This document shows positions 13,682-38,878 of a stretch of DNA of 64,000 nucleotides, one piece after another; the first letter of the stretch is position 1; the number at the start of each line of letters is the position of its first letter. Below the pieces are notes generated by a model. It was not told the DNA's origin, did not search any database, and worked only from the letters and a program-made list of their open reading frames with translations. Location: the NCBI GenBank assembly GCA_950295325.1, contig OX485805.1:24107501-24171500 (forward strand), read 5' to 3'. A program made the position numbers and the translations under genes. This stretch comes from Polytrichum commune (lineage: Eukaryota; Streptophyta; Polytrichopsida; Polytrichales; Polytrichaceae).

Positions 13682-13694
13682 TTCTTTTGCAACT
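13682..13694 (+). repeat. LINE target-site duplication, left copy
   Basis: TTCTTTTGCAACT here is repeated exactly at 38879-38891. It marks the proposed insertion site of the LINE by target-primed reverse transcription. Both copies are T-rich, so some chance of coincidence remains. Confidence 0.55.
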
Positions 13695-14843
13695 ATAGCA
13701 CACAACAGATTGGAGGAATGAGAGAGAGCTGCTGAGAGCTTAGCCTTCCCGGTGAGGTGTGCGACGGTAGAGAAGCCGCTGTAGATTTATGTGCGTACTG
13801 CTAGGAGGTTGGCCTTGCAGTGACCCCGCGCTCACTAGGAAACAGACGGCCAGTGTGTTTGGAGAGGGGCTTGGCAGTGTTGAGGGGTATTGTGTATGCT
13901 CAAGTTTTAGATCTGGTGAATTAGGTATGTGGAAATGTCAGTTGAATCTTAAGAAGTAGAGCACTCTGAAGAGCTGGGACTCTGCTTAATTATGATTAGG
14001 GGAACTGCATTGCTCCACTGATATTCGATTAGATCTGAAAATTGTGTGTATCACATTAGGGGAAGGGAAAACAAGCACCCATGACCCAAGCATACTGACA
14101 CTCTAGATCGCCACACTGAGCCGGGAAATACACCTTCAGAAATAGACAGAGAGTCGAACAAGAGGAGCCAAAGGCTCCTTTTTTCTTTCATTCACATTGC
14201 TACTACATTGTACCTGCTTCTTACACATAGTATAGATGCTTATCAACTAGGTCTAGAAACACACTCCCAGCACAGAGTAGATCTGCAGGTAGCGACATCT
14301 GCCTTACGTGGAGGAAAATCATACAGCACCAACGAACGGAGCAGGGAGGGGGTCGAAACGGAAGATAGGGGAGGCGGCGTTACAGGCGGGGATCCAGCAC
14401 AACATAGCTGCTCAGATCTACACCGAAGGCCTATAGAAACACGAGGAACCAGCAGCATTGGAAAAGAGACTACTCACAACATCAACAAACCAAAATCGAC
14501 AACATGTGCGAACCCACACCAGAGCTGCAACAGGAAGATTGTAGAAACCAAAGGCGACCAACATCAGATCTACTTCAATCCTAACCTCGCAGGTCTACAG
14601 ATCAAGCACCGCCCCCGTAGCGCATCATCACACTCTCAATGCCAACCCAACAAAAACCCGCAGCAGATCTACCTTAATTCTAACCCTGCAGGTCTACAGA
14701 TCAAGTGCCGCCCCCAAGACTCATCGCCGCATTCTCATCGCCGATCCAGCAAGAGTTCGCCTCAAACCTGCCACGATTCTCACCCTATTGCAACACAATG
14801 TCTAACGAATCACCGCTGCTCCCACAACACAGCACAAACCGAA
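13695..14843 (+). other. LINE 5' leader region
   Basis: This is the stretch between the proposed 5' end and the ORF1 start. A frame is open from 14208 in phase with ORF1, so a longer N-terminal extension is possible. It contains an imperfect direct duplication: CAGATCTAC-T-AAT-CTAACC followed by GCAGGTCTACAGATCAAG at about 14567-14610 and again at about 14662-14705. GC content is higher than in ORF2. No promoter motif can be named. Confidence 0.45.
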
Positions 14844-16046
14844 ATGGCCTCAACAAGGGCCCCCCTCCGGGACAGTGGCAACGGGGCAGGAAGGGAGTTG
14901 ATCCCAAAGGCTCTAGCCAAAGTATTTGGGGAAGAGGATGACACCATGGAGATAGACTCCCCGTCGCTAAGTCTGAAAAAAACTGCTGGCAGAGAAGGCT
15001 AAATCAAACTCGAAAGCGGCAGCCAATGGGAAGAGGTCCAGGGACCGGGCAGGAGCTTCCCCGCCTTCAAACACCCAGAAGGTAATCTCCCCCCGAACCG
15101 GGATTTACACCACCGAAACTCCATTAAACCAGAAACTCAAATTGTGGTTAGGCTTTGAAACCATGGAATACCTAGCTATAGAGCAAGGGATTGAGGAATT
15201 ATTTTCAGATGAAACCATTGCTGATAGAGTTACAAGGGGCATCCCTTGTAAGGAAGCCGAGGAGCTTGAAAGCGTAAGCATCTCCTACCCAAGAGTGCCA
15301 CAAATTTTGTATCCAAGTGTGAGAAGTGATGGACTCCCGGGGCAGCACCTTAACCTCACCCAGCTCCCATCCGAAATTGAAATCGACCCCATTTCATGCA
15401 TATCTTTAGATTTTCAAATTGCCATTCATTTTCAGCTCCCTAACAACCCCTTATTCCACAATCACATTAAGGAGCTTGTTAAAGAAAGGCTAATTGACAT
15501 GCACATTCCACTTGGTACTAACCTCATTGAACCTATCTCAGTCTTATGCATGAGTATTAAGAGAGGAGGAGTTAAAGGAGTATGGGCTGGGATAGTTAAA
15601 CTTCACCTCCTTAACCCTCAAACCGACGGAGTAGCCCTACTCACGGGTCTTAGACCCTTCATCCTCCATCTTGAACCTCACTCCAATGTTGGGAGCCTTG
15701 GCAAGGTATGCAAGTCATACCACTCCATTGCTAGGAGCAACAATCTTTCTATCAAAATCTCAAATGATGCACTAATTGGATTGACACCTCATGCTCTCTT
15801 TCTTGATGTCCTAGAAAATAGCTTTAGAAGAGGTCACAATTTTGAGGTTGTTGAAGTTCAAAAGAGCACCGCTAACAATCATGCCTATCTTGTTGCCCCC
15901 ACCCCCCTTCAAGCCAAAAAAATCCAAACTCTTCAAGTAGCTACACACCACCAAATCCTTGAAGGTCAAGTAAAGAATGGCCCCTCTCTCACACTAGAGC
16001 AAAAGGCAAAAAAATAGGCCCTTATTCTAACCTTTTACAACCTCCC
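14844..16046 (+). pseudogene. LINE ORF1, 5' part (frameshifted, cut by CACTA)
   Basis: Chosen start: ATG at 14844, where the composition changes to a normal protein. The frame runs to about 14975, then needs a one-base slip in an A run (14976-14983) to continue through a Lys/Ser-rich basic linker into the main frame at 15142-16017. A second slip in the A run at about 16007-16013 would carry it to the CACTA insertion. The product is a globular ORF1 protein with no zinc knuckle. Known LINE ORF1 proteins bind the element's RNA; that role is inferred here. Both slips are in A homopolymers, so sequencing error is possible. Joins to 28369-28951. Confidence 0.6.
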
Positions 16047-16059
16047 AATATTGATGAAT

Positions 16060-17150
16060 CACTATAAGAAACCCGCGTTTTTGGGGTCGTTTTGGGGAAA
16101 CGAGTGATGTCTTCCGAGATGTCACTATGTTCGGCAATAAACGCCCACAGAATTGCAGATTTTATTGGACGTTGCGTGAAACATGACAAATCATGGGCCA
16201 GGACATGGCGATGTCAGGAAGGATAGCCATGTTCTTGTGGATGTCATTTAAAACATGCTGACGTCCTGCGTCGGGCCGTTTGTAAGGCCGCTAACGCCAC
16301 GTCATCCCCACAGGTCTATCCACGGCATGTATAAAGTTGCGGCGGGCAGACTTAAAGTGCTGCCCGGGAAAAAAAGGTTGGAGAATGTTCAACTATGTGT
16401 GGTTGGCTATAAAAGACAAACTTGTTCCCAAAAATTTGAGGGAATGCCACATAAATTTCTCACGGTGCATCAATATGGTTCTTGGCATGCATGTTATTCT
16501 CCCGAATTCCGTTCAAATATTTGTAGCGGATGAGCCAAAAAACACGGGGGTGGTTGAGTCATTCTCTAATTGCCATAAGGTAGACATGCGGGATCACAAT
16601 TGCATACCGTAGGTTCATATATAGCTGGTTCAACACATGTTAGCCGAATAATTAATTAAAGTGGAAAATTGCCCTTTGGATTAAAATAGAAAAATTATGA
16701 AATTTCAAGTTTTGCTACAAAAGGAATGTTTTCTCATTCACTTGTTTATAATTTAGTTTGTCATATGTTGATTTTGATTTCAAAGGATTTCAAAGGTTAT
16801 ATATTTGTACATTTAGACACGAGGAAATCAAGGGAAGACTTTTGCAAGCAAAATATGGCACTTCATTGCTCTCACAATTCCAAAAATACATGCGCCAAAC
16901 GTGGGAGTGCCCACGTTGGATCTCGTGGCCACATTCCACATATAGACGAGCAACTGCTACTGGAAAATCTTAGTGCCTAGAAAATTATGACCATCCGTCT
17001 GTTTGAACACAAAGGACGTCTCCGCGGACACCCGAGTAGACGTTAGCCTTGACAGTCGGTTCCTCTCCAGCAAGGCGTCCCTTGTGACGCAACCTTATAC
17101 ATTGTATGCCATGTGTGATGTGACGTTGTTGTAGGTGCTTTGGGTTGTAA
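16060..17150. repeat. CACTA left subterminal region
   Basis: After the terminal repeat, short motifs recur in both orientations: GATGTC, GACGTC, GGACATGGCGATGTC, GCTGACGTCC. These match the dense motifs at the right end (27780-28340) and suit binding sites for the TNPA-like protein. No protein gene is supportable here. The part from about 16600 to 16800 is AT-rich and lacks the motif. Confidence 0.6.
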
Positions 17151-17153
17151 CCA

Positions 17154-20100
17154 CTAATACTGTGTTCCTTCGTTTTCTTCTTCCCCACGAACATCCAACG
17201 AGGCTGGGATGTGCATGCCGCCGTCCGTTGCGGGCTCTCTAGTGGGCTCTACATCTTGCATTTGTGGTTGTAAACCCACAAAGTCAGCATCGTGGCCGAC
17301 ATCGATTATGCGCGGTAAGGTCTGGTTGGTTTGTAGTTGCTCACGTCTATCCCTCACGTCCGTGCGACATACAACCTTCCATCCTGGCCTCGTCGGGTCA
17401 TTGGAGAAAAAAACTTGTTGAAAATGCAATGGAAATGCAAAAGAGTTTGAGTGCACTTTGCCATCCATGCGGTTGAAGTTCGCAACGGTGAAACCATATT
17501 GATCCCGTGTGATGTTAGGGTGTCAAGGATCTGCACTTGGGCGAACCCAATCGCACACTAGCACAGTGGTGCAATGATTTCGGTAGTCTAGCTCCAAGAT
17601 CTCTTCGATGTAGCCCACATACTCCTCGGTTGTCTCTATGGGTCGCCCATTTCTCAAGCCCCATGGTACTTGTCGTGTAAATGAGGCCACCACACATGAA
17701 TCGCGCGTGACGAGGCCACCCTCAGCACCTCGTACTCGGAAGTGCATGCCAAACGCATACATTTTCCGGTGTGAGATTACATATCGCTCGGGAGGTTGCG
17801 CGTATTGCACAATATCGACGTCCACAACTTTGCCGGAGGAACGCTGACGTGACAGACGCGACGTCAACCATGTTGCAAAGGGAGGAAGATCGTGTAGTTC
17901 CAACGGATACCGCACTGCCAAAGTTGGATGCCGGCGGCGACACATTTTCCGAAAGGCCTCCCTCTCTTTCCAACGTGAAACTATAGCTGCCATAAACTCC
18001 CTGCACAAGGTTGTGTGCCATTAAATTGTGGTTAGAAATGGCCCTTGCATGTATATAAAGGTGATGCAAAAGTGTGATGGCCATCATCTGCAATATCACA
18101 TGTGACGCGTATATCTCAGAAAGAATGTCATTTGGGACATCATGTCCAATACATCCTCATGCACTGCTGCATGTCACAGTTGACATGGCACAGGTATTTT
18201 GCATTGGGTGACAGTATATATCATCGAGGCTTGAAGTAAAGTAAGTATGGGTTCCACTAACTCTCTGCAACGCTCCAATGACGACGCATTGTCCAAAACA
18301 AAAGCGTGCGCATAGTTGCGGAATTCATCGGACATCTTTCGCTTTTGTTGTGAGTTGCAACGGAGAATCTCATCGTTCATGGTTGCATCCTCTTCAGCGT
18401 CCCATACACGATGTGTAGTTCCTCTGTACTGATGCATGTACTCCGTGCAAAAACCAAGCGTGTCGTCCATTTGATAACCTTCCGCTATGCTACCCTCCGG
18501 ATGTGCAAATGTTCGAACGTAATCTTTCAACGTTTTCATGTACCGTTCTATGGGATACATCCATCGACAATGCACTGGACCGCACGTGTACAACTGCTCC
18601 ACCAAATAGACGGGAAGATGCGTCATGACATTCATAAATATGGGAGGGAACTCCTTCTCCATGACGCACGTCGCCATCACCATATCCAACATTGTGCCCT
18701 CCTTGTCGCCTCTCTTCACCTCCTTGGCGCATAGTCTCTGAAACACTCTACTCAGTTTGATAATAGTTACGCGCACGCTTTCATCCAATAGGTTGCGTAT
18801 AGCCACTGGAAGAATATGGAAGACATATATTTAGAAAGTCAGAGAACGATTGTGTCGCGTCCCCCTGGACATCAGACAGAACATCTAGGAGCGTCATGAA
18901 GAACATGAAGTGCGAGAACAGTTTGAGGATAACGTCCCCCAGGATGTTGACGCGTCAACCATGTTTGGAATGAGGTCTCAGTAGATATCATGCGGTGTGT
19001 GCCTATATTCCTATGACACATTGATACATTGTATTACAACATTGACATCCCCGAGGGTGTCCTTCTTGACTTGCCTGTTGCATGAGAACATGATAGTCGT
19101 GCGTTTTCATGTACTGCAATTTCCCATCCGCTAGGCGCTTATGAATGCTACCCACGTAGTTTGTGGGGGTGCGAATATTGGAGATAATTCCAACAAACTC
19201 CGCGCATTCATGTGGCCTAAAAACATAGGGAGCGTGCGGCATATAGTACCCATCCTGTGGCCGCCGTGGGGGTTGCAACCATATCTCTTCGCGTATTCCC
19301 AGGTCCTTCGCGTCGACCCTGCTTCCAGGACTATCATTCATTCCAAACAATGTCTTCAACAAGTTCTCGTACAAATTCTTCTCACAATGCATAATATTGA
19401 GGATGTGACGCTCTAGCAGGTGCTGCACAAGACACATGGGCAATTTCAGACACATTGCCAGCACTTTCATGGACACATGCATGCCTCGTCTATCCGTATG
19501 AGCAAAGCTGGTAATCATCATGGCCTGAAGCGTCAAGTCAGATGTCTTGGTGGACATCATTACAAACTACGTGACTGAGACGGACGTCGCGATGTCCATT
19601 TCAACATCTGTGGACAGGATGTGTAAACATTAATTGTTATACGGGAATCACCTGCCAGTATTCCAGCTCGAACAACGCACTAAGTCTTTTGACGCCAGTG
19701 ACATGCACAGGATCGTTGGGTCCGTTCTCTCTCCCGCCCATCTGTAGGTATGAATCGCGCCAAGCTATGTATCGAATGATATCATCCCCCGACATCGGTT
19801 TTGGCCTAGGTCGTTCCTCTTCCTCCCCATTGAATCTCCTATTCCGGCGATACGGGTGGTGACGGGGTAAAGAACGACGAATGCCGCCGTAAACAATTTT
19901 GGTGCCCCTAATGCTCCGATTTGGAAGCATGTCTCCGGTTTTTACCATCCTCGCATCGGTGTTTGGTCCACAACAAGGGCACCCCTTGTAGCCCTTACAA
20001 GTAAGACCAGAAATGAGGCCGAAAGCGGGAAAATCGGAAACGGTCCACATAAGTATGGCACGCAAAGTGAAAGTGCGACTCCCTTGTGGTTGGGAGAAAT

Positions 20101-21401
20101 CTAAAGCCTCAACACCATGCCAAAGCTCTTGTAGCTCCTTCAAAAGCGGTCGTATAAGCACATCAATGTTTGAAGAGGACGGCGACTTCTTCCCGGAAAT
20201 CAATATACACAACGAGATAAAAAAACTTTTTGGTCACCAACCATGGCTCGAAATTGTAAATCAAAATCAATACCGGCCATGTCGACCAATTGGTGTTGTT
20301 TAGTTTAAAAGGATTCACTCCGTCCAAAGCGAGAGCCAGTCTCATGTTCCTATCGTCACGCCCAAAGTTGCCAAACGCGACGTCATTGTTGATGTGCTTC
20401 CATGCAGGGCTGTCAACCACAGAACGCATGATGTCATCACTGCTGACATGTTTGGTGTAACCTGTCAATAGACACGCTATCTCAGACGAGCGCCACATCC
20501 GTTTCAACCTAGGAATTAGGGGAAAGTGACGGATTACTCTTGCGGGAATGTTGTTGCTGCCATCCAGCCATCGTCGCGCCGTGCACTTGGGACATAAATC
20601 ATGATTTGCATATTCTTTGTCATATAGAATACAACCATTGGGGCATGCATGGATATTGTTGTAGGTCAATCCAAGTTAACGGATGCTCTTCCGAGCCGCA
20701 TAATGAGTTTTGGGCAACTTGTTGGGCATTGGTAACAAGTCTCCAGACAAAAATCGGAACAACTCATCGGTAAATGTATTGCTCACACGGAACACCGAGC
20801 ACATGATGATCGTGGCGGACACAACACTCATTTTTGAACCCGGGTACACTGGAGTCGTGGCTTCCGTATACAAACCATCCAATTCATCTTCGATGTCGCC
20901 GTCTTCCTCGTTCTCCATATGCAAACGTCCTTCAGCTACGGCCTCTTCGTGGAGTGCATCCCCTCTGCCCAGTGCCTCCAGCACCTGACGTTCAACTTCA
21001 TGGAATTCATCCAAGAGGGGTGGGGGAAGTGCCCCGTTGTCGGCATCCACGGGTTCAGGTAATGTGTTCGAAGGGATGTCTTCTACAACGTCGTTGTCAC
21101 AACAGACGTCCTCCACCCATATTCCAGACGGTGGGTATCCATCGACGGGGTCACCGCCTAGTAAAGACTTGGTTAGAAATGGATCACGGCCAACTGCCGC
21201 GTGGTGTTGCCGTATAACTTGTATGGTTTTTCTGCGTCCACCCTTACAGTCTTTGCAAGGACATCTAAATGTGTACACATTGTTCTCTGTCGCCACGCGG
21301 AGCTCCGTGTGAAGTATCAAATTCCCTATTGGCACGTGACGAAGTGTGCGTCCATCGTCCGTCAAACGAATGGTTGCACCACGACGCACAGCCGAACCCA
21401 T
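17154..21401 (-). pseudogene. CACTA transposase, tnp2 type (decayed)
   Basis: This is the DDE-type transposase that cuts and moves CACTA elements in the nucleus. The N-terminal part has C-P-C-K-D-C. Further on are the tnp2 hallmarks: a Y-N-N-I-H-A-C-P-N-G-C zinc motif, N-M-R-L-A-L-A-L-D-G-V-N-P-F, W-T-V-S-D-F-P-A-F-G-x-x-S-G and C-P-C-C. The later H-x-L-N-I-M-H-C-E-K-N block and a PPIFMN-MTHLP-YLV block (DUF4218 type) complete the core. Likely introns: 19423-19651 and about 18806-19070, with another near 18010-18240. Lesions: TAA at 20676-20678 (Lys expected), one extra base in an A7 run at 20219-20225, and TGA at 17523-17525 in an otherwise open C-terminal frame. The sequence is otherwise well kept, so loss of function looks fairly recent. 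Exon limits after 18.25 kb are unresolved. Confidence 0.88.
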
Positions 21402-21516
21402 GTTGCGTGTCCCGAATTGGAAGATGTTACCTCACTGGGCCGATGTTATACACCCTGCAGCGCTTCCGCAAGGTCTCCGCGTGGTCGTGTTGCGCATGAG
21501 CATTGATATAAACAGA

Positions 21517-21738
21517 GGACACCATTCGTTGACACTATGCGGAGTGTCTCTTCCAGGGTGGATGTCACTGAGAATGTCCATGGGGACATTGCTGTTGATC
21601 TGTCGGCGTCAATTGTGACATCTTCCTGGACACCATTCGTTGACACTATGCGGAGTGTCTCTTCTAGGGTGGATGTCACTGAGAATGTCCATGGGGACAT
21701 TGCTGTTGATCTGTCGGCGTCAATTGTGACATCTTCCT
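21517..21738. repeat. Two tandem 111-bp copies upstream of the CACTA transposase
   Basis: The 111-bp unit starting GGACACCATTCGTTGACACT at 21517 repeats at 21628 with a single difference seen (CTTCCAGGG against CTTCTAGGG), and a third partial copy starts at 21739. It contains GGATGTCACTGAGAATGTCC and TTGTGACATC, the same GATGTC motif as the element's ends. It lies about 115 bp upstream of the transposase start on the minus strand, in promoter position. The near-identity points to a recent duplication. Confidence 0.85.
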
Positions 21739-21769
21739 GGACACCAAAATGAAGGTCACACACTACACG

Positions 21770-22896
21770 GCAGTGTGTTCCATACACACCCACGTGAGGG
21801 ATTTGACTGCTGCAGAACATCGAAACCACAATGGTCACGTCGATGACCTGGATCTTTCATTCCCGCACACAATGGAGAGCGCACAGTGTTCGAATTAAGC
21901 ACATGTCGCATTGGGTGTCTTACATGACGTCCAAGAAAACACTAGTATCTACGACGCCAGTAAAAAAACAATGTAACTGACCTTTTCCCACGTGTCCCAG
22001 AGGGTATTCCAGGCAGTGGATGCCCCAGAGGACCCTGAGAAGGCTCGCCGACATTCTCTAAACCCTAAGTGTTGCGGCTTCACCTTTGTACGCTCATTAC
22101 TTGAACATCCCTTAGCAGCATGGCGGTGTCGTGTTCAGCACGAAAGCCTGGTAGGGTTGTCCGTTTTATAGACACATCACAACATCCGCAAAGGGTGGAT
22201 GCGGATGACTCCGAGGCCGCTGCAGTGTTGTCCACTTTGGTGTTTGAATGCGAAGAGAAGAATGCAATGATGCCATCCCAAAAACCCAACACAATTCAAA
22301 GAACCCAACGTGCACACCATCGCCGCCGTTCACGCTTGCTCAACTTCTTTGGGAGTGAAAATTTCACAACACCCACTGATCATCGAGCATCGCTATCAAC
22401 CCAGTTCCAAAACAGGTAAATCTTCCATCTCATATGCATGCATCACAATTTAGGTCACGGTCAAGTTCAAAATTTGCTGTGTGGCGAAATTTTTCGCCGC
22501 TCTCGGCCACTGGAAGCCGAACTCCGACAATGGCACTGGGAAGCCCGCATGCGGACACGCGGCAGCCCCCGGTTTTAGGTGCCTGTACGGCCTCCAGTGG
22601 GTTGGGCATAGGGTCACAGTCGGCCATAGGTCTTCTCTGATGCCGAGGTGCATAGATCCTCTTACCTACGTCCGCTAGTCTCCATTGTGGTGTCTGCTGC
22701 AACGCCGATGTGTTGCTTTCCCTACGGCGCTGCGCTGCCTTCCCACGCCCTTGTGTTGCTTTTCCGACGCGCTGTGTTGCTTTTGGGTGTCCAAGATGCT
22801 GCGGACACGGGATCGCACTGGGAAGCGCAAGGAGATGTCTCCAGCAACATTGGTAGAACACAGGCGCGCAGTTGGAGAGCGGTGATCCAATGCCAG
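21770..22896. other. Region between the two divergent CACTA genes
   Basis: No gene is clearly supported. From about 22480 to 22990 the DNA is GC-rich compared with the neighbours and includes a loose repeat of TGTTGCTTT-CC-ACGC (22710-22790). Frames of up to 160 codons exist on both strands but none has recognisable motifs, and they overlap each other. This may be the promoter and first exons of the TNPA-like gene, or captured host sequence. Confidence 0.35.
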
Positions 22897-25800
22897 AAAG
22901 GACCCGCGGCATGTGGCTGGGAGGCGTGGCTCACCCCCGGCAAGACGCCGCCGCATAATCGAGGTATCATCGGAGGAGGAGGATGCGGCTGAGGACGTGC
23001 CGGAGCAATCCTGGAGGTAAGTGGGTCTTTCTCCTCCTTTCCTGACCTCTTCCTGGTGTTGATGCTAGCGTAGAACACAACCAGTCTTCATCGTCGCGAT
23101 GTCCGCGTCTGTTCGACCAGTTCAATTGAGCCGCGTCTAGGCCCATAGGGGCGTGGGCATAATCGATATTGCAGTCTGCGCAATTAGTAGACGTCACCTG
23201 TAGTTGTCTCTAGCAGGTCCTAAGAGCGCCCAGGACGCCAAGTTCTAACGTCCACCAGTCGGATGCCAGGAGAGGATAGGGCAGAAAAATGCACAATTTT
23301 GGATCAATGTAGCAACGCACTATGCTAGACACAAACACAAACAACGCCACGCTCCAGCTCCCTGGAGCTCCATGAATTTTTTCCTTTATACCTGCAACTT
23401 GGGGTTTTGACGACGGTTATGGGACCATGAGCTTTTGACCACCCTGATCTGCAGTCACTAAAAGACTGCAGATTTGTTTTGTGGGTTTTACAGCTGAAAT
23501 TTTAAGAATTTGGGGGCATGTTATATACCGTTGGAAAGGTATTGAAAATATCTTTCCAGCGGTATATAACATGCCCCCAAAGTCTTGAAATTGCAGCTGG
23601 AAAACCAAGAAAACAAATCTGCAGTCTTTAAGAACCCATTTCAAGATGGTTTAGGTAGGACGACTCAAACATTAGACCATGTTGTTGTGGTCCATATATT
23701 AATGGGTGACAATAGAAAGTCTCAAATTAACTCATATAGTGATATTAGTGTAATGTTTTATTTCGTGATTGATGAAAATCTAGTATGATTAGTGAATTAG
23801 TTAACGAGGGATTTTAGTATATTTCCGGGTGGAGAACCGAAAGGGATCGGGTAGGGAATCGGGCAACACATCGGGCAAGGCTAATGGAATCGGGCAAGGG
23901 GGTAATACCGGGCGGGGGCCGGCCTCGAAGAGGGGCATGTACCCGAGCTAGTGGGCTCCAACAATATGTCGGGTAAACCCACACTATGCCCGGGGTGCCA
24001 CCGGTGCAATTATGCCCGGGGCGGTGCCCGGTCTAGTGGGGATGCTCTTATGGCTTAGCTCCTATGGCGCACAACCCCCAATTAGTTGATGGAGCCGACA
24101 TTAGGGTTGATCCTTCACACAGGTCAATGTAATTGGCCGCTTTCGACCTCTCAGCAGTGAATTGGTTATCTCTTAAACTCAACCAGTTCATGTCTATGGG
24201 TAATCTTCCTGGACCCTAAACCTATCGAATGGATATACCCTCTTGGACAACCAGGTCATCTATGATGGGTACTCTTCCTGAATTCTCAACCCTCAATTGG
24301 CTATTTCTCAAACTCATCTAGCTCAATTGTAATGGTTCATCTTCCTGAACTCTAAACCTTCCATTACATCTTTCTCACACGTAACCAGTGCATCGTGACT
24401 CGTAATATTCCTGCACTCTGTGACGGCCATTATCCCCTACAATATCGGGTAATATTCCTGCACTCTAAACCTTCAATTGGTTATTTCTCGCACTATTTCA
24501 GTTTCGCGTGATGGGTAATCTTCCTGGGCTCTCAACATCTAGGTTGTTATTTCTTTCACTCAACCAATTCACGTGTGACGGGTAGTTTTTTTGTACTCTG
24601 AACCCTCAGATGGCCATTTCTCACACTCAACCAGCTTGAACATCGTGATTGGTAATCTTCCTGAACTCTGAAATTGCTCGTCCATGCTCTTGACTGCGTG
24701 TATGATTCATAGGGGCAGTAACTGGTTGCAATGTGGCTGCTCAAGCTCAGTGGGTAGTCGCATATGTGTGCACCTGGAGATTCCTTAATTGTGGAATGTG
24801 GTTGTTGTAGCCGAGGATACGCAACCAACTCGGGCACGGAATCAGACGGCGATCAGGAGAACAGTGATGGGATTGAAACATCACATCCACTACCAACACG
24901 TAAGGGAGGGGGGAGCACTGCCTTGAAGAAACGTGTGGAGCTGGATGCGCAAGGGCAGCCTTTTGGCGCCATGAAGGCTGTCCTGTGCGCCGACATCAAG
25001 AAGTATGCAAAGGACCTGGATCCCACGACGGGATGGGAAGGCCAGCCACGGCACGAGAGGAAGCGATTATTCAAACGCCTATACACAGGTAAGGTTTGCA
25101 CATCAATTTTTTGGCATGCATGTGTCGCGTTAATTTGCGATGTGAAACCCGAATCTGACATTTTAAGTACAACCAAACATCATTCTGGACATGAGCAACA
25201 AGGTGTATGTCTATGTAGGCAAGCATGACATTCTCGCTGACGTCAGGGTGGACATGTATTTAGCACAGAGTGTCATGCTGACAATCTGTGAGTGGATGCC
25301 GAACAGGACGTCCGTGCGTTTTTGTGGACATGTGTACTGAAACGCTCGACAATCGCTATCGACGTCCATAGGGACGTCGATGATATCAATTTTCTCTCTT
25401 GTGGTGACATACTGGTTTGTACCCTTTCTAACGTAGGTGTAGTGTGGGCACCCAGTGTTGGTCGCTTGTGAAGTGAATGTGATGGCATTGACGTGTGTGT
25501 CCGGCATGCAGACTGGGAGATGTGCGGGCATTGTGACAAAGTGTGCGAGAAGTGGATGCGGCCTATTATAACAAAGGTACTCATCAACACCCGGTGGAAG
25601 TTAAACCAGCTCATAGACAACAATGCGGGTAAACCAACCGATGTGGATGCAGAGCATTGGAAAACACTTGTAGGTATGCGCGCCACCGAGGTTGCGCATT
25701 TGAAGTCTCAGCACATGCGCTCAATTTCAAAAGGGAAAGGATCGACCACAGCTCAACTGAAAGCTATTGAAAGGGAGGTCGTCTCCCGTCTGGTAAGAGT

Positions 25801-28357: not shown

Positions 28358-28368
28358 AATATTGATGA

Positions 28369-28951: not shown

Positions 28952-31620
28952 CCACAAACCGCCAAGCAAAAAAAAAGTATTTACTACAATACTACCCCAA
29001 ATACATAGAAATATATAGAAAAATACAAATACATACTAGAATAAACATACTATACCCTAGTTGCATACAAAGTACCCTACGGTGTCAAAAGACTTATACG
29101 AAATACAATCATACTTCACCTATACCCCAATACGGTAGGCCCCAACAAACCACCCACCCAATACATATACCAGAATACATATACATCCCGTACTACAACC
29201 TCCGTACAATATACAGTCTCTGTATAAAATACAGAATACATACAAGTTACAAAGTACCCCAGCTTCGTCCAAAATATAATTACCACCTAAGGCACTATCC
29301 CCACCCAACAAGCAACCTTCATACCGAGTACGGAAAGTATCCAAAACAATTACACTACCTTTATTCAAGACATAAAGACCATCCGATACACATACTATAC
29401 TCAAAATACATACCTCTCCCAAAACATAACCCACACCATAAACAAGAAACCCATCCTAACCTAACAACACACCAACAAAATAAATTACATCCTAAACATC
29501 ATTCACACCCAAAGTACAAACAATACTCAACAAACAAAATGGCCCTGGCCTACCGGCTTCGCCACAATACTAACCGCAAACTCCACCTCACTAATTGGAA
29601 ACCTACCCCAATAACAAACCAAATATCTAAACACTATGCAAACGCATACCCCTTAACCAAACAACAAGAAAACATAATACCCGCCCAACATCACACTACC
29701 CCTACAATTAACCGTGCACTCATTAAAATACCAAAAATCAAAACAACTAACCTACATAAATACTACCCTTCTACCTCAAGTACAACAAATGTAAATCAAA
29801 TATCTATAAACAAACCAAATTACACTAACCACCCACACAACAACAACCCAAAACATACTCTCCGAACAAAACACACCACACATCCAAACTATACTTCTCA
29901 TCCAAAACACAAAATACAACAGCCCCACTCACAATGTAGGCACCTCACAAGAAACGAACTTCATCCTACATCCAAACCGCATCTAAAATATAGGCTACAC
30001 CCAAAACAAAGGCCACACCCACAACTAAATCCCCCCATCACATCTAAACAATCAAGTAACATTACACACACCCCAAATTACGGAAAGTACCCAAAACACA
30101 TACCACACCCAATGAACTACCTTCATCCAAGACATGGATCCCACTCAAAACACATAAGCCACTCAACACACATATCTCATCCAAAACATAACCCACATCA
30201 TGAACAAGGAACCCACCCTAACCTAAAGGCATGCAAACAAAATAGACTACATCCTAAACATAAACCCCGACAGAAATCCGTACTCTACCCCCACTCACAA
30301 CCCGACCCCTACTCAAAATACAAACAACACCCAACAACAAAATGGCCTCGGCCTACCGGCCTCGCCACAAAACTAACCGAAAAAATCACCTCACCAACTG
30401 GAAACCGACCTTAATGACAAATCAAGTACCTAAATACTATGTGAACTCACACCCCCTACCTAAACAACAAGAAAACATAATACCCACCCTACACCACATC
30501 CCCTCTACAACAAAACTAACATTCATCAAAAATCAAAAACCAAGTAAGACACAACCAAAAACAACTAACCTATATAGATACTTCCCTATTATTTCAAGTA
30601 CATCAAATATAAAACTTATAAATGTACCAAATCACACTAACAACTACACAAAATACAACCCCCGAACACAACACACTACGCATCCAAATTTTACCGCTCA
30701 TCCAAAACAAAAAGTACAATGGCCTCTCTCACAATACAAGTACTCATCAAGAAATAGATTCCACCCTAAACTCAAATCACATCCAAAGCATAGTTTACAT
30801 CCTAACCACAATACACAACCAAAACCTAAACCTCCCCTCACATTTAAACAACCTAGTAACATCACACACACCCCACCCAACCCGATTACCATAATTAAAA
30901 CCAAAAACATGAAAAACCCAAAAACAAACAAAACACGCCCTTTACCCACTCAATTAGGAAATATAACATCCCCCCCACAACAAGATTCCCACCTAAAACA
31001 AAAAATACCCCGGTCCCACCCACAATACTATTCTCATCCAAGATATAGCCCTCACCTAAAGCATAATCTTCATCCAAGGGACAAGCTTCATCCAAATCAT
31101 AGAGTCCACCTAAAACATAAACTTCATCCAAAAACCAAAATATACCCAAAACACAAATACCAACAAGCGTATAGGTACCAACCAAAACAAGCAACCCAAT
31201 CTAACTCAAAATCTCACAAGCCTCACCCTACATACAACTTGTACCTAAAACCCACACCTTACCCCCACTCCAAATACCACCTCCACCCTAAATACAAACC
31301 CTACCAAAAATATAAACACCCATATTCAAAATACAATCCCTACCCAAATAACAAAATGGCCTCGGCCTACCGGCCTCGCCACATAAATAACACATACCAC
31401 TTCATAAAAAATTGGAAACCTAACTCAGTAACAAACCCACTACCTACAAACAATGCAACGTCACACTTCTCACCAGAACTAGTAGAAAAAACCACACCCG
31501 CTATGCCTAACCTCTTTACCACAACCAAATTCACATTTTTGAAATATCTAAAAATAAATATGAGAAAACCAAAAACACTTCAATTCTACGGATATTACTT
31601 CATTGACATACTAGATCTAC
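28952..31620 (+). pseudogene. LINE ORF2 N-terminal region: three His/Pro/Lys-rich tandem units
   Basis: The plus strand is very poor in G and reads as a low-complexity protein with recurring H-P-K-H, H-P-K-Y and T-H-P-N motifs. Three units begin with AACAAAATGGCCTCGGCCTA or a close match at about 29535, 30337 and 31353, encoding N-K-M-A-S-A-Y-R-P-R-H. Each unit has N-W-K-P after about 25 residues. Spacing is about 803 and 1016 bp. The frame is open from 28948 to 30414 and, after one shift, from 30342 to 31730. Frames this long in such a compositionally odd strand could arise by chance, but the unit structure and the 2A at the end of the third unit suggest real coding. Function unknown. Confidence 0.5.
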
Positions 31621-31631
31621 TAAAATGCGGG

Positions 31632-31655
31632 GACATCGAACTTAACCCAGGACCA
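31632..31655 (+). other. 2A-type ribosome-skipping motif (D-I-E-L-N-P-G-P)
   Basis: The frame encodes L-L-K-C-G-D-I-E-L-N-P-G-P, an exact match to the 2A consensus D-(V/I)-E-x-N-P-G-P with the usual hydrophobic, Leu-rich lead and a Gly before the Asp. Such motifs make the ribosome skip one peptide bond, releasing the upstream product at Gly (codon ending 31652) and restarting at Pro. Known in some animal and trypanosome LINEs near the start of ORF2, upstream of the APE domain, which is its place here. Only about 25 residues follow before a stop at 31728-31730, so the link to the APE frame also needs a shift in this copy. Confidence 0.8.
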
Positions 31656-31873
31656 ATGCATGATATTCTGCGAACACACCCTATTACACACAAAAAAGAG
31701 CTAACACGTATTTTATCCCAAATACTATAAAACTACACCCTAAATACCAACACCTAGCAAATACATTCGCCCCTATCCTAAAACACACACACCCACTACA
31801 CCCCTAAGCAATCACCACATACCCACATCTACACCATTATACCCAAACACAAAACCAGTCGCCACCAACCCAT

Positions 31874-33093
31874 ATGCTATACGCCCTAATTATTACCATC
31901 CACCCTGCAATAGACATATGCAATAACATGCTAGCCCAACCCCAAAATTACCACTTTAATAACATATGGACCAACACATTAATCATTAGACTAACTAACC
32001 TCACCAACCCCCCCGAGCGACACATACTGACACCGCACCCCTACACAACGTTCATAGGAAACAATCAACATATAATACTCCCTCAAAACTCAATACATGC
32101 AAAAATATACGAATTCATCCACAACCAAGTAACCACACCTACATCAACCACCCTCAAGAAAGAATTCCCTTTCCTCCCAAACCAGTTGATAACCGAAACA
32201 CTTAGATGTTTAGAAAACATCAGCGAATACTCACACCCATCCCCAATCCTAGCCGCTCCCACACCAATCACAAGAATAAACACCAACACCGAACATGAAA
32301 CGATCATAATAACTTGGAATGCGTCATCACTCAACACATCATTACCAAACCTACAAAGTTTAATAAACAACTCTCTAAACAACACAGCAATCGTACATAT
32401 CCAAGAAACCAAACTTACTGCAAACAAATCTACGAAATACATACAAAATTCATTCCCGGAATTCAAACTCATTTTCAGCAACACACACGCACTCACAAGG
32501 TGCATCCAACAAATGATGCCTTATACCCCCGGAAGAGGTGGCCTACTTACACTTATCCATCACAAATATACATTCCCGGGAAATGTCACCAAAATCCCCA
32601 CACCAGCAAACATCTCCCCATATCTCCAAATAATAAAAATAAATAACCACCCACTAATACCTTGGCTAATCATACACATGTATATGCCTACGCACTTAGA
32701 AGACATATGTCTTATCCCACACCTTAAGAACGAAATCACTAACGAAATTACTACACACCCCAATCACATATATACACTCTGCGGTGACTTTAACAAAGAT
32801 ATTACATTCAGGGGCAAACAAAATAACAACACTAACACCCCCCACAAGAAGAAGACTTCCAATGGAAAAACTTCACCACATCTCTCAACTTAGAATATAT
32901 TCAAACCAACACTAGTATCTCAAGACAAGGTGGCTACAATTACACATCAACAAGCCTAATAGATGGTTTCTACATTCACTCCCCAGACAACAGCAAATTC
33001 ACCTCCACTACAAACACAAACATGAATCTAAATTCTGATCACTATCCGGTTACATTACACATCCCACACAACACACTTATAGCCCCACCAACT
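31874..33093 (+). pseudogene. LINE ORF2: APE-type endonuclease domain
   Basis: The frame shows the ordered motifs of the exonuclease-endonuclease-phosphatase fold: I-I-I-T-W-N-A (32305-32325), I-Q-E-T-K (about 32399-32413), P-G-R-G-G (32530-32544), M-Y-M-P, C-G-D-F-N (about 32779-32793), and S-D-H-Y-P-V (about 33034-33051). This enzyme nicks target DNA to prime reverse transcription. The catalytic Asn, Glu, Asp-Asn and Asp-His positions look present. A one-base slip in the C run at about 32840-32845 separates the first part from the last, which is open into the reverse transcriptase. About 140 residues precede the domain and are unassigned. Confidence 0.85.
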
Positions 33094-35895
33094 AGAATAC
33101 TGAACCCGATACCACCTGAAAACCTAGAAAAATTTAACACAATATTCTTTGAAGAAAACTCCACCCAACTTAAAGAACTTATCACACTACTAGAAAACCA
33201 CCAACACTTAACACCTGATCAATGGCTAGATGCCTGTGCATCACTCGACTACATTATAAACAAAATCTCAGAAACAATCGAAAAAACCTACAAAGCAGAC
33301 CCACTACCCAACCTTACAACCAGAACATCGCAACAAGGCGGTTTTCTACCACGCAAACAAGCTAGAGAATGGAAAAGACACCTCAACACATATCACCTCA
33401 TCAGAAAAGCCATTTACATAGCACAACATGACCCAAGCTGGCTAGTGCACCCCATCCTAACCGATATCCGAAACCACCAACACGTCAACATCCCGCACCC
33501 ACCTGCTACAGCAGCATCCCCTAATGAATGGATTAACACAATAGCGGCCCTCGCAAAAACTGCAAATAAAGAAGCCAGAAAAATCACCACAAAATATACT
33601 AGAGACTGCATTTTAAAAGCTGTATCGAAATACCGCCAAATGTATGAAAAAAGCCCCCAAAAAATAAACCGTAAAGTCTTCAAAAACACTGAAACTTCAC
33701 CTCTTGACTCCATCATTGATAGACAAAATAACATATTAACCAGCCCTGAAGACATTGCATCAGAGATTTACGCACAACAATCCATTAGTAACCGCCCAAC
33801 AGTCCCCACGTGCCACCATCAAAATACACACCCACTTCACTGTACATGTGGAGTCAGACAATACCCATGGCACGACCTAGAAGGGTACACAATTGACAAA
33901 CGAGGAGAACCCCAAATTCCCTTACACACATACTTTGATCAAGAAACCTATGACTTCTGTCTTAAAAATCTAAATAATAACAAAGCCCCAGGCCTAGACA
34001 AAATTTCCAACTCAATTCTAAAAAATATGCCTCCGCGCTTTTACAAACTATTTTTCCTATTTTTTAAGCACTGCTATAAACAAAAGCAAATTCCCGCATC
34101 ATGGAAAACTAGCCTAACAGTTTTATTATACAAAAAAGGCAACCCATCACAACTAACAAATCACAGACCTAATTGCACTAGCTAACACCATATATAAATT
34201 TTACACAAGTACACTAACCTCTATCCTATCAGCATACGGAGAAAGATACCAAATACTACACGATAGCCAAGAAGGGTTCAGAGCAGAAAGAAACACCTCC
34301 AGACAAATCCAAATACTAATCGCAGCGCTTGAAGACGCAAAATTTACAAACCAAGATATATATATTCTTTACATTGACTTCAAAAACGCCTTTGGCTCCA
34401 TTGACCACGCCAGACTCTTAGCCATAATGAAAGACTTGGGTTACCCCACTGACTCAATAAACCTCATAGGAAACATATACTCATAATCTTCAACCATATT
34501 TACTGGCAAACACTTCGGAAAAACCCTACCAATCCATATCCAAAGAGGTACAATACAAGGCGATACCCTTAGCCCATACTTATTCATCATATTTCTAGAG
34601 CCCCTACTCAGATGGCTACAACAAAGAAACAAAGGATATACTTTAGGTACGTCTAGAATCAAAATCTCATCAGCAGCATATGCAGATGATCTTGCAGCAA
34701 TAGCCAACAAACTAGAGACACTACAAACACTATTACATAAACTAGACAAATTCTGCAAATGGGCAGGAATGGATCTAGGAATACCAAAATGCGCAGTAAC
34801 TGGATGTCCAAACAAATCTAAACTTAACCCCACAACCTTCAAGGCCCTAATCCAATCCACCAACATAAACTATAGAAACCAACCTATACCAGTCCTAAAC
34901 CAACACGAACCCTACACATACCTAGGAATAAATCTTGCACCATCACTCAAGTGGAAAACACAAATAAATACCACTACAGCTAAAATAACCAAACAATGTC
35001 AAGCCCTCGTAGCATGCCCAGCCACTATGAAACAAAAAATCAACATGGCTGATACAGTCATACGCGTTGGAATAGTATATAGCTTTTATGCAGTACCATA
35101 CTCCATACCAGCCATAAAAAAACTTGACAAAAAAATCATCGCACTCCATAAAACACTATGCGGAATACCCAAATGCACATCTAATATTGCTACGCAACTC
35201 CCCCACAACCTATTTGGAATTGAAGCATTTTCACTACAAAATGCCTATCTACGGTGTATTGGAGAGCAACTACAAAATGCCCTTAACGACAAAGGCCGTA
35301 TTGGGAAAATTTATACCGGCTTAACACAATTTATACTTGCCAAATACGGAGGTTCTAAAGAAATTACCCGTATTAAATATCACCACTGTGTTAGATCACC
35401 TATTACTAGAACACTATTTCTACTCAAGCATAAAGCCGGAATCCACCTTAAAAGTACAATAAACAACTTCCTCCTACACCCATCCCCACTCGAAAACGCA
35501 TGGATGCAAGAAGCACAAATGCTACAGGGTCTAAACCCCAACACCTCACTTAAACTATTACACAAATTGCTCATACATAATATAACAACACTAGACCAAA
35601 TTACCATGCCTAATGGCTCCACACTAATGAACCTAGATGAATTCAAAATCTACCACTCCACCCCCTCCAAACTCATCCAAAGTGCACTAAACATTGATAA
35701 TCAACTATTTTGCCAACCTCCCTGTAACCACGAATGCCCCCTACCATGCCAACGACACCATCTGCCCAGATCCCTCAAAGACAAATATATACTAAGACAC
35801 CATAACATTCTACCTCACCTACCGACTCCCCCCGTACACCCCCCAAACCCTCCCATCCCCCCTCTACCCCCTCCCCCCAACAACATACTTAAGGA
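33094..35895 (+). pseudogene. LINE ORF2: reverse transcriptase domain and thumb region
   Basis: Recognised RT blocks in order: N-N-K-A-P-G-L-D-K (about 33976-34002), I-P-x-S-W-K and K-K-G-N-P-x-x-L-x-N-H-R-P, I-A-L-A-N-T-I-Y-K, E-G-F-R, Y-I-D-F-K-N-A-F-G-S-I-D (about 34372-34407), Q-G-D-T-L-S-P-Y-L-F (about 34557-34585), catalytic A-Y-A-D-D-L (about 34675-34695), and Y-L-G-I. This copies element RNA at the nicked target. Lesions: one extra A near 34168 (frame change just before I-A-L-A-N-T) and TAA at 34484-34486. The frame is otherwise open. A 300-residue linker precedes the RT core and contains a possible Cys/His knuckle (C-H-H-x-x-x-H-x-x-H-C-x-C near 33812-33850). Confidence 0.92.
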
Positions 35896-36140
35896 CCCTC
35901 GACAATATCCCATATACAAAATACTGGATCACAAACAAAAACAATCTACCGACCATAACGGAATAAAAAGAACAGTCACGTCATACCTATGTCAATGGAC
36001 TACAACAAATAACCATACATACAACAAATGGCAAATCCCAAGGGACCTATACCCCTATTGCGATGCCAACACTTGCAACCACAACACCGCCCTACTTACC
36101 CACTACCACACGGAAAGACAACACAAATACTTCTCAAACA
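35896..36140 (+). other. Chromodomain-like module in LINE ORF2
   Basis: The ORF2 frame here encodes Y-P-I-Y-K-I-L-D-H-K, then after an insert S-Y-L-C-Q-W, then Y-N-K-W, D-L and a helix ending L-L-T-H-Y-H. This follows the chromodomain pattern: Y-x-V/I-E-K-I-L-x-H/K, three strands with Y-L-V-K-W, a second Trp, N-L/D-L and a final helix with L-I-x-x-Y. The first aromatic and the Trp of the methyl-lysine cage are kept. Chromodomains target Ty3/gypsy chromovirus integrases to marked chromatin. I do not know them as a standard LINE module. The insert between strands 1 and 2 is longer than usual (about 13 residues). A Pro-rich linker (35815-35885) precedes it. Confidence 0.6.
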
Positions 36141-37185
36141 TTATTAATGCCTACTTCTCCACAGAACAACAAAGAGACACGAGATATGTCATACCTACCA
36201 ATATAATCCCACTAGCACATATCTCTATTAATGAATGCAACCCAGAAAATGACATCGAAACCAACTCCGATACAATCCAAATACAATTTGACGTCGCTCA
36301 CATACACGAGGATAATGGTAGGCATCTCATCACCATCCCGAAAACTAGACTAATGTAGTTATGGAAACAATACCAATTGGCAAAAAACACCACACATGGG
36401 CTAGAACCGCCCACCCAATCTTTCGAAACCGAAATTGTCTGGTTATATCAAAGATACAAATACCGAATCCCGAAAAGTGACCCACTCAAACGTGCCCAAT
36501 ATACAATACCAACCCCAATATTAGATCTCCTAATAACCACATTCAATATCAACCAGTCATACTTCTCATCCCCAGTGACATGCCCCACACAACTCACCCA
36601 ATTCTACTCGCCATTCTCGCGTGACATAATATTTGGATCCTTAGGGAAAGCATTTGACCACAAATGGCAAGGAATAGGATACGCTTATCCCCACAACGAA
36701 ACAGACCTACAACAAGCCATTCACTGGGCTCGAATGGCGGCCCAAAATGATCCACATACAATCACTATACTTATATCTCCGGATACCGACTGGTACAAAA
36801 ACCCAAACCCGCCCGTAGGTCCATTCCTGGACACACACATCATTGCCCACTTTGCAGCCAATACGATTGCATATGAAGAACCCACAATACCTCCCGAACT
36901 CAATATTACAGGAAAAGAACCGTCTACCCTACAAATATTTTGTATCCACCACCAAAACAATAACATAGGCACCTATGAACAAATGAAACTACTAAAGGAC
37001 ATAGCAGACAATCTCCAAATACTACAAAGTCACACCCAAATTGCACCACCCACCCCTTCAAACATCACAGTGAACTCTAGTAAAAAATGGTCTAAATCAA
37101 ACTACCCGAATATACCCCCAAACAATAACATCCCTACCCCACAACTCCCAAACTACCAAACAAACCTACCACTAAAATTCCACCC
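36141..37185 (+). pseudogene. LINE ORF2: unassigned domain between chromodomain-like module and RNase H
   Basis: The frame is open except for a TAG at 36356-36358, after which it continues in the same phase. From about 36600 to 36970 it reads like a compact globular domain: F-Y-S-P-F-S-R-D-I-I-F-G, W-Q-G-I-G-Y-A-Y-P, L-Q-Q-A-I-H-W-A-R-M-A-A-Q, then I-T-I-L-I-S-P. I do not recognise the family with confidence. The layout faintly recalls nucleotide- or SAM-binding folds (helix after a strand, SPF/YPH motifs), but no DPPY/NPPF-type catalytic motif is visible, so I give no function. Confidence 0.5.
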
Positions 37186-37755
37186 CCAATTCAGCTACTA
37201 CACTGATGGCTCCTTTATGAAACCCAAAGAAATAGCCCCCGGGGAATGGAGAAGAGAAAGAGCTGGATACGGTATCTACAGCCCCAAAGGGCTAAACATC
37301 GCCAATAGATTACATGGACATCAAAACATATTACGAGCAGAAATGATTGCTATACACGAAGCACTAAGCATTATCAACGCACAGTTTCCCAACGAACCCG
37401 CATACATATTCACAGACAGTCTAAATGTATTATACCTACTTAACACTCAAATTAAACACCCCACACTTCATAATAGTCACCCAGACCAAACCACATTAGC
37501 CTCCATGGTTAAAATTCTTCAAAAAAGGACACAACCAATTACACTATACAAAGTTAGAGCACACGTCAACATTGAAGGCAATGAAAAAGCATACAAACTA
37601 GCCAAAAAAGGATTAGAATTAGAGCACAGAACTGCCGCCCACCCATACGAACATGCCCACGCCACCCCTTACTATTACCAAAAAGACGTATGGGCCTCGA
37701 TGGAAGACGTTCCGGACAAAGGCCCAGTTAGATTTCTAGAAGAAAAAAATTAAAA
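37186..37755 (+). pseudogene. LINE ORF2: RNase H domain (one catalytic residue changed)
   Basis: RNase H motifs: Y-Y-T-D-G-S-F (about 37196-37216), G-Y-G-I-Y-S, L-R-A-E-M-I-A-I-H-E-A-L (about 37330-37365), F-T-D-S-L-N-V (about 37408-37428) and V-R-A-H-V-N-I-E-G-N-E-K-A-Y. The usual last motif is N-E-x-A-D; here Asp is Tyr (TAC), so the fourth acidic residue is missing. RNase H removes RNA from the hybrid after first-strand synthesis. The frame closes at a TAA at 37751-37753; one base shift in the adjoining A run restores the downstream frame. Confidence 0.88.
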
Positions 37756-38661
37756 AATATGACAGGGAAACGAACCTAGCAATCATGGCTACACAAACCC
37801 CCAACACCCGTAAATGGACAGAAAACATAGATATAGACAATGAGTTGTCAAACGAATTCTGGACAAATCCCGCTATCACCGACAAACAAAAATCATGCCT
37901 CATCAAATTCCGCACAGGAACCTACATGGGTAATGCGAGAAAACAAATGTTTTTTGGCCACCAAAGATTTCCCACTATCACGTGCCCCATATGCAACTCA
38001 AATGAACCAGATACATGGATACATGTATTACTTACATGTAAACACCAACATATACACTCACTTAGAGTTAAAAGACATAACAAAGCAGTCGGAGAAATTA
38101 GGAAGCTCCTAATCTCATCAGAAAAATCCCGATGCTTTACTCTCATGAATGCTGGCACCTTCAATAACAATCCCCAAGAAAACACAGTCCCCAATTGGCT
38201 ACTCCCCTGCACATGTAGTACACAAAGATGTCACTGTAACGCAAGATTTAGACCTGATATCCTATGTGTTAAAGGACTAACATATCAAAATGCCCCCCCC
38301 CCCCAACGATGTCGACCCTAACCTTACCATACAATTCATTGAATTCACATATTGCAATGACAGATTCTCCCCAGAAGCAATTGGAGCAAAAAATAACAAA
38401 TACAGCCCACTAATTGCCAGCATTGCTTCCAAAGGATGGAAAATCGAACCACTTATTGTCATCACTGCTGGGGCCAGAGCGACTGCCCACACCCCATCTA
38501 TGAAAGCACTAGAGACCAACTTCAAAATACCTATGGCCACCATCAAAAATACCTTCAAAAACATTAACACCATTGCAATACAATATGCTATGTCTATTCT
38601 CCTCCATAAAAGGAGAATTGAAAACCACCAACCACTCCCCCAAAATCCAGACCCCCCATAA
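37756..38661 (+). pseudogene. LINE ORF2 C-terminus: CCHC knuckle and PD-(D/E)XK-like endonuclease domain
   Basis: The frame from 37756 gives C-P-I-C-x9-H-x4-C at about 37983-38039, close to the CCHC motif that precedes the restriction-like endonuclease of R2/CRE-type LINEs. A second Cys cluster (C-T-C-x5-C-x-C, about 38209-38240) leads into R-P-D-I-L (about 38248-38262). After a slip in the C run at 38292-38302 comes I-Q-F-I-E-F-T-Y-C (about 38329-38356), K-x-x-K-Y, and G-A-R-A-T-A-H-T-P-S-M. PD followed by a hydrophobic-strand Glu and then Lys fits a PD-(D/E)XK nuclease, although the PD-to-E spacing is longer than in R2. The domain recurs at 58463-59010. Stop TAA at 38659-38661. Confidence 0.7.
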
Positions 38662-38878
38662 CTCAGAACTTTAAAGTTAGGGTAAGGGGCAAGGGGTATT
38701 ATATTAGGCGTAGTTACATTACTGGTTTCTTGTGTCTAAAGTGTCTACTCTCGAAAGGGGGGAGTAGATCTTCTCCTTCATACCTCTGTCCTGTGGGCTT
38801 GGGATTGAAGGTAGATCGAACAGACACTTAATTCACGTCGGTCTCCTTCGGAGACCGAAGTTGTTTCTCTTCTCTCTC
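38662..38878 (+). other. LINE 3' UTR with terminal hairpin
   Basis: A 217-bp tail with no poly(A). It contains a perfect 9-bp stem with a UUC loop at 38838-38858 (TCGGTCTCC/GGAGACCGA), 20 bp before the proposed 3' end, then a CT-rich tail. LINE reverse transcriptases commonly recognise 3' UTR hairpins; the role here is inferred. Confidence 0.5.

Follow-up and report, generated by a model that had tools for sequence, protein, structure and literature searches.

A probable land-plant branch of the Dualen/RandI LINEs with a PCIF1/CAPAM-like module in its polyprotein

The window analyzed here, a 64,000-nucleotide stretch of DNA, carries a plus-strand array of retrotransposon domains that a sequence-only reading had described as a very large LINE with two endonuclease types, related to the Dualen/RandI group and equipped with extra modules. 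The locus raises the questions of what kind of element this is, how large it really is and what its additional domains might do. With high confidence in its identity and anatomy, we assign it to the Dualen/RandI kind of LINEs, which have both an APE endonuclease and a restriction-like endonuclease (RLE), as a branch hosted by a land plant, most likely a moss.

Limits of the element and its 5′ half

The LINE spans positions 13695–38878 and is flanked by a 13-bp target-site duplication, TTCTTTTGCAACT, read from the plus strand at 13682–13694 and 38879–38891. Since the matching duplications abut both ends, the limits proposed earlier are exact. The size is not 25 kb, however, because a CACTA transposon foreign to the LINE is inserted inside it on the minus strand (16061–28357), leaving a true LINE of ~12.9 kb. 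The CACTA element has the ends CACTATAAGAAA and a 3-bp target-site duplication, AAT (16058–16060 and 28358–28360), and its minus strand matches Transposase_21 (tnp2 transposase, PF02992; 5.8e-37) and DUF4218 (3.1e-31) in Pfam. The window copy of the LINE is disrupted by frameshifts and stops. For two copies both ends were observed, and their target-site duplications measured 13 bp and 18 bp. Because an intact U2 snRNA gene is found 1.1 kb upstream, a U2-targeted, Utopia-like insertion was considered; it was rejected, since no part of the U2 gene is missing and the copies compared by eye have different flanks. By eye, the 3′ flanks of the compared copies also lack a common target.

The 5′ part of the LINE (13695–16060, plus strand), which matches copy L029 at 98.4%, comprises the 5′ UTR and most of ORF1 in frame-broken open pieces (14085–14999 and 14977–16014). 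These pieces returned no Pfam family at E ≤ 0.1, and ORF1 none above its cut-off. Beyond the CACTA insertion, the 3′ part of ORF1 resumes at 28358–28951, a protein stretch unbroken in L029 and L030. The N-terminal region of ORF2 (28930–31628) is of low complexity, G-poor and rich in H, N, T and P, contains three imperfect repeats of ~204 nt, and is open in L031 and L032. It is followed by the 2A-like peptide GDIELNPGP (31629–31655; motif CGDIELNPGP in the window copy), which reads GDIETNPGP in L031 and GDIKPNPGP in L032 and L033; as the latter departs from the consensus, 2A separation may fail in this near-identical pair of open copies. NPGP is absent from P0001, P0002 and P0003, the related proteins used below. 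For an element hosted by a plant, having a natural 2A peptide is notable, given that a 2026 survey found hardly any in plant viruses (PMC12846837).

Domain order, copies and placement of the reverse transcriptase

All catalytic domains lie downstream on the plus strand. The APE endonuclease (32291–33070), frameshifted in the window copy, was recognized by its WNASSL, QETK, CGDFN, SLIDGF and NSDH motifs. Pfam scored Exo_endo_phos at 0.014 in the window copy and at 1.3e-5, just over the cut-off, in L031, and listed none at E ≤ 0.1 in L032; the assignment draws on Pfam in L031 only and on motifs and homology in the other copies. The reverse transcriptase (RT; 33990–34850, ends approximate) carries AAYADD and matches PF00078 at 1.9e-14, while a DNA pattern for YADD with a single codon choice gave 0 matches. 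Among solved structures, the best RT relatives were of the R2 type (R2 chain, 7e-31, with the L032 homologue). RNase H (37175–37640; PF00075, 7.2e-13) was found in the window copy, L031 and L032. The C-terminal CCHC motif and PD-(D/E)XK RLE (37956–38658) show CPIC..H..C, RHN and RPD..E..K motifs and homology to the C-terminus of P0001; because the RLE profile had 0 PDB matches at E ≤ 1, its identity as a nuclease rests on these motifs and this homology. The element closes with a 3′-terminal hairpin seen by eye (38838–38858), with paired changes in another family, and a pyrimidine-rich tail (38866–38878), replaced by (ATT)n in many sister copies. Among 20 copies, 8 tails were direct (ATT)n, 2 close variants, 5 pyrimidine (as in the window copy) and 5 unreadable.

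Between RT and the module described below lies a chromodomain-like stretch (35879–36090) with a cysteine/histidine cluster just upstream. PF00385 stayed sub-threshold (0.11 and 0.049 for pieces of L009), appearing in 2 of 8 members with a best value of 0.0014, and the corresponding profile retrieved CDYL chromodomains mixed with unrelated PDB chains at E 0.26–1.6. A similar stretch, recognized only by eye, is present in P0001 and P0003, although Pfam returned nothing for the P0001 piece. The stretch may therefore be ancestral rather than the extra plant module it had been taken for. Profile and structure checks, proposed earlier for each domain, matched RT, RNase H and the PCIF1-like module, left RLE without a PDB match and the chromodomain sub-threshold, and yielded one structure model, that of the module.

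The motif order claimed by the sequence-only reading, with ORF1 upstream of APE, RT (YADD), chromodomain-like stretch, RNase H, CCHC and PD-(D/E)XK, held well beyond this copy. The window LINE reads ORF1 pieces, 2A, APE, RT, chromodomain-like stretch, PCIF1/CAPAM-like module, RNase H and RLE. Eight parts (2A, post-2A region, APE, RT, Zn/chromo-like, PCIF1/CAPAM-like module, RNase H and RLE) were all found in 17 of the 23 sequences examined, and the parts present kept their order in 23 of 23; the domain order is not due to chance. A search of the genome for full-length copies, also proposed earlier, gave hundreds of candidate relatives, three of which (L031, L032 and L033) are open single frames of 2,663–2,922 aa, and both nuclease regions are under purifying selection. 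Plant L1s likewise have APE, RT and often RNase H (PMC9033089), so that one could picture a plant L1 joined by chance to an unrelated C-terminal element. We regard this as hardly credible: APE and RLE share one open frame in all three open copies, the C-terminal architecture recurs in P0001, and RT falls outside L1. The open frames and the constant order led us to reject a composite of two elements.

The RT tree set the elements of this genome beside P0001–P0003 (P0003 being from the green alga Parachlorella kessleri, and P0001 alone reaching RLE) and included three of the genome's own L1s, three R2s and human L1. RT joined the APE-bearing P0001–P0003 at 100/99, apart from L1s and R2s, and stood outside L1 at 100/98. 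This placement rules out an ordinary plant L1, at least as judged against L1 and R2 references, and together with APE and RLE in one frame it bears out the proposed kinship with Dualen/RandI as far as a tree of these members can show. The elements of this genome formed their own branch (100/99), which, in such a tree, would suit a separate lineage that gained APE and RLE independently. That history is very unlikely, given that RT is 39–43% identical to P0001–P0003, that P0001 has the same RNase H–CCHC–RLE C-terminus, and that the PCIF1-like module is shared and the tails are of the (ATT)n type.

A PCIF1/CAPAM-like module upstream of RNase H

The main extra module, placed after RT and before RNase H, had escaped the sequence-only reading. 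At 36200–36985 (plus strand, ends approximate), a methyltransferase-fold module matches PF12237 at 1.1e-9, and its profile retrieves CAPAM chains from the PDB at 1.9e-6. Foldseek gave six matches at E ≤ 1e-3, all of them CAPAM, where both Foldseek and VIA-align used a single structure model with a mean pLDDT of 59.9 and parts, including residues 85–100, below 50. As modeled, the module has the PCIF1/CAPAM fold, and it has the family profile. It is conserved across proteins 41–76% identical to that of the window. The catalytic NPPF position, by contrast, reads AYPH in the window copy. Of 29 clade proteins reaching the loop, 27 have AHP, one AFP (P0031) and one another sequence (P0035, apparently frameshifted), so NPP[FYW] occurs in 0 of 29, as it does in 0 of the 26 readable genome copies (28 examined). 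The distant relative P0001 keeps NPP (SNPPP). Because a conserved AHP replaces NPPF, N6-adenosine methylation of the ordinary kind has probably been lost in the host's clade. A protein search from the P0001 module had no match at E ≤ 0.001 among 8000 candidates scored, and none of 131 pattern matches in viral contigs was confirmed. One of 33 related proteins is labeled as an archaeal MAG, probably a contamination. Among the titles and abstract openings listed by a literature search that lacked most subscription journals, we found no report of a PCIF1-type or adenine methyltransferase module in a LINE, and none of two endonucleases combined with an mRNA-cap-methyltransferase-like domain in one land-plant jumping gene.

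In the mechanism we propose, ORF1 would package the element RNA, and the 2A peptide would split the low-complexity N-terminus from the ORF2 polyprotein. One nuclease, probably APE, would nick the target, RT would begin target-primed reverse transcription from the hairpin and the repeats of the tail, RLE would cut the opposite strand and RNase H would clear the template. In this scheme the module would most likely bind the element's own RNA at its capped 5′ end, or else some other RNA end that bears adenosine, although cap binding is a rather speculative role.

Other functions can be set beside it. An active adenosine methyltransferase marking the RNA cap or cDNA, and thereby hiding the element from host sensing or speeding translation, would explain why the fold is retained and conserved and why P0001 keeps NPP, but is unlikely for this clade in view of the missing NPP[FYW] in proteins and genome copies alike. 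A scaffold contacting proteins or chromatin (e.g., RNA polymerase II or nucleosomes, with the chromo-like stretch) to steer integration, its nucleic-acid chemistry gone, is a tentative possibility; it fits the loss of NPPF, the gain of a new conserved motif and the adjoining chromodomain-like stretch, whereas the sub-threshold chromodomain assignment and the 3′ flanks without a common target speak against it. With similar reserve, we propose that dual-endonuclease LINEs may have captured a PCIF1/CAPAM-type domain before the present land-plant branch and that of P0001 separated, and that the land-plant branch may have re-tooled it, from NPPF to AHP, into a part recognizing caps or RNA ends. If this is true, a cap-reading module would reside within a reverse transcriptase polyprotein. 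A cap-methyltransferase fold is unexpected in a retrotransposon polyprotein, and it suggests that some LINEs deal directly with their RNA at its capped 5′ end.

Comparison with known systems

R2 elements have a C-terminal RLE and CCHC, are not known to carry APE or RNase H, and insert into rDNA. The present element shares this C-terminal RLE and CCHC and has its best solved RT relatives there, but its RT lies on a separate branch and APE and RNase H are also present. With plant L1 it shares ORF1 and the APE–RT layout, differing in an RT outside L1 and in the additional RLE and PCIF1-like module. The module resembles PCIF1/CAPAM, an mRNA cap-specific adenosine N6-methyltransferase, in its fold and, until the position of the catalytic loop is reached, in local sequence, yet in this clade it is without the catalytic NPPF and embedded in a retrotransposon polyprotein.

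Dualen/RandI non-LTR retrotransposons were reportedly described from green algae by Kojima and Fujiwara in 2005. In the literature consulted, green algae and cryptophytes are the hosts named for Dualen, which is cited as the intermediate through which LINEs exchanged restriction-like for APE endonucleases (PMC4640811). With a land-plant branch of hundreds of candidate copies, some of them open and near-identical, it would become testable in a bryophyte which nuclease cuts which strand. Our element shares with Dualen/RandI APE and RLE around one RT, RNase H and (ATT)n-type 3′ tails, the last tabulated for algal RandI/Dualen elements in PMC3747384. It differs in its land-plant host, in the 2A that precedes the APE region, in a PCIF1/CAPAM-like module that we found in no description, and in the AHP that this clade has in place of NPPF. 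P0002 stops before the module and P0003 before the catalytic loop. P0001 shares the order APE–RT–PCIF1-like–RNase H–CCHC–RLE, while keeping SNPPP in the module and bearing a long N-terminus with other contents.

Structure and surroundings of the LINE

The sequence-only reading had treated 13695–38878 as one very large LINE. Its outer ends are correct, being flanked by a 13-bp target-site duplication, TTCTTTTGCAACT (13682–13694 and 38879–38891), but its full length is not LINE: nested within it is a CACTA transposon (16061–28357) whose termini are CACTATAAGAAA; it is flanked by a duplicated AAT (3 bp) and encodes a tnp2 transposase on the minus strand (PF02992, 5.8e-37; DUF4218, 3.1e-31). Once the CACTA and one AAT are subtracted, the LINE measures ~12,884 bp; its ORF1 reaches the CACTA and resumes on the far side, and ORF2 of this copy is interrupted by frameshifts and stops. 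The CACTA, which thus interrupts ORF1, has a degraded transposase and an internal 111-nt tandem duplication (21517–21738).

A complete U2 snRNA gene (12383–12577) lies 1.1 kb upstream of the LINE, which leaves it intact. An inverted duplication flanks the LINE (5397–7009 and 39430–40849; pieces 79–98% complementary). Its arms carry C/D snoRNA genes, snoZ159 in both and snoR31 in the right, with snoR64 just past the right arm and a 5S rRNA gene (5133–5251) adjoining the left.

Relatives across the genome

The genome holding the window comprises 407.8 Mb in 64 contigs, seven of which together account for ~406 Mb; n = 7 fits Polytrichaceae. It yielded three LEAFY DNA-binding exons, L039 and L040 being of type II (residues D, C and H) and L038 of type I (H, R and H). 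The passages of PMC6588583 drawn on here place type II primarily in mosses, with a single liverwort example from Plagiochila asplenioides, where it occurs beside type I; they describe both types as widespread in mosses outside Bryopsida and record both in Polytrichum commune. The exons therefore indicate a bryophyte host, in all likelihood a non-Bryopsida moss and less probably a liverwort.

When the genome was searched with part of the RT, 718 first-look candidates emerged. Forty were scored, and the matches listed numbered 41, the window itself and 40 others at 85–98% identity; 20 of these 40 copies were fetched for comparison. A PF12237 (PCIF1/CAPAM) search gave 697 candidates, and all 150 scored exceeded the curated cut-off; the same search found matches in 0 of 14 control genomes. 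Seven loci were fetched from the PF12237 matches.

Using L032 domain queries against 23 sequences (the 20 copies, the window, L031 and L033), we found identical domain order in every one and all eight parts in 17; in the remaining six (L014, L015, L020, L022, L023, L024), outer parts are absent from the fetched stretch. In copy L009, ORF2 from 2A to RLE forms a single frame of ~2,389 aa with two stops. Open frames span 2,917 aa in L031 and 2,922 aa in L032, both beginning right at the limit of the retrieved sequence, and 2,663 aa in L033. L032 and L033, found on separate large contigs, share 99.6% identity across 8,927 columns, which points to recent activity.

Copy L019, judging by its 3′ flank, is inserted in a sequence that looks like the ORF1 of a further element of this type. 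In L030 (minus strand, 3037–5982), ORF1 is open for 982 aa with several near-identical repeats; Pfam returned zero families above cut-off for it.

Domains of ORF2 and their conservation

The N-terminus of ORF2 (28930–31628) is long, low-complexity and G-poor, with three imperfect 204-nt repeats. In L032 this region (aa 27–168) contains three hydrophobic segments potentially able to cross a membrane, and the N-terminus of P0001, an APE-bearing protein with related RT, likewise has such segments; L031 has none at the threshold used for L032. The window and L009 share the 2A peptide GDIELNPGP; that of L031 is GDIETNPGP. The near-identical open pair L032/L033 has GDIKPNPGP, which departs from the 2A consensus at glutamate. 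NPGP was absent from P0001 and its two counterparts, P0002 and P0003. Odon reportedly described 2A in animal APE-type LINEs in 2013.

Pfam detected no APE in L032 at E ≤ 0.1, although both its APE motifs and its homology with L031 are unmistakable. For the proposed chromodomain-like module, matches of the stretch stayed below threshold. The proposed PD-(D/E)XK-like RLE is supported by a CCHC-RHN-RPD/KPD-E-K pattern and by homology to P0001 (RNase H–RLE part, BLAST E 1.3e-35), with zero matches in the PDB. Across four clade sequences and P0001, C33, H46, C51, RHN, PD, E151 and K167 are invariant, and one CCHC cysteine varies.

Pairwise Nei–Gojobori dN/dS between L031 and L032, rough values given high dS, was 0.04 for RT, 0.12 for APE, 0.12 for CCHC+RLE, 0.15 for RNase H, 0.26 for the post-2A region, 0.32 for the Zn/chromo-like part and 0.47 for the low-complexity N-terminus. 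These values indicate that both nucleases have been kept.

For the PCIF1/CAPAM-like module, dN was 0.25 with dS saturated. Common to the window clade and P0001, the module is well supported as a fold; its function is a more tentative matter. Binding of the cap or an RNA end is a conceivable but doubtful role, which we place above active methylation, itself rather unlikely, and beside a scaffold; the latter, taken to cover all non-catalytic, non-RNA roles jointly, is possible, if still improbable.

RT placement, 3′ ends and known relatives

In the main RT tree (14 rows, LG+C20+F+G4), window-type elements group with P0001, P0002 and P0003 at 100/99, and R2 forms a separate branch (97/97). So does L1 (100/98; three L1s of the same genome plus human L1), placing the element's RT outside the plant L1 clade. 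An 11-row tree built earlier, omitting these L1s, is concordant. In the 14-row tree human L1 and R2Bm sit on long branches, and unlike letter make-up was flagged for R2Bm, P0001 and human L1. P0003 comes from Parachlorella kessleri, and the RT grouping suggests that P0001 and P0002 may also be algal.

(ATT)n stands directly at the 3′ end in 8 of 20 copies, with close variants in L015 and L024. Pyrimidine tails like that of the window occur in L009–L013, and TATC-type repeats in L031 and L032; a comparable 3′ end is absent from the sequence of L014, L020, L023, L027 and L028. Before the tail lies a hairpin, in whose stem, compared by eye only, two T-A pairs of the window are C-G in L032; by the same inspection L031 has a variant stem. 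The L029+L009 copy has an 18-bp duplication, TGGTTCAACCCACTTTTT, and the 3′ flanks of the copies compared are dissimilar to each other.

That the element belongs, as first proposed, to the Dualen/RandI kind as a land-plant representative is well supported, short of what named reference sequences in the RT tree would add. In the part of PMC3747384 cited here (Table 3), the 3′ repeats of eight green-algal RandI families are (ATT)n and (CTATTT)n, with (A)n in none.
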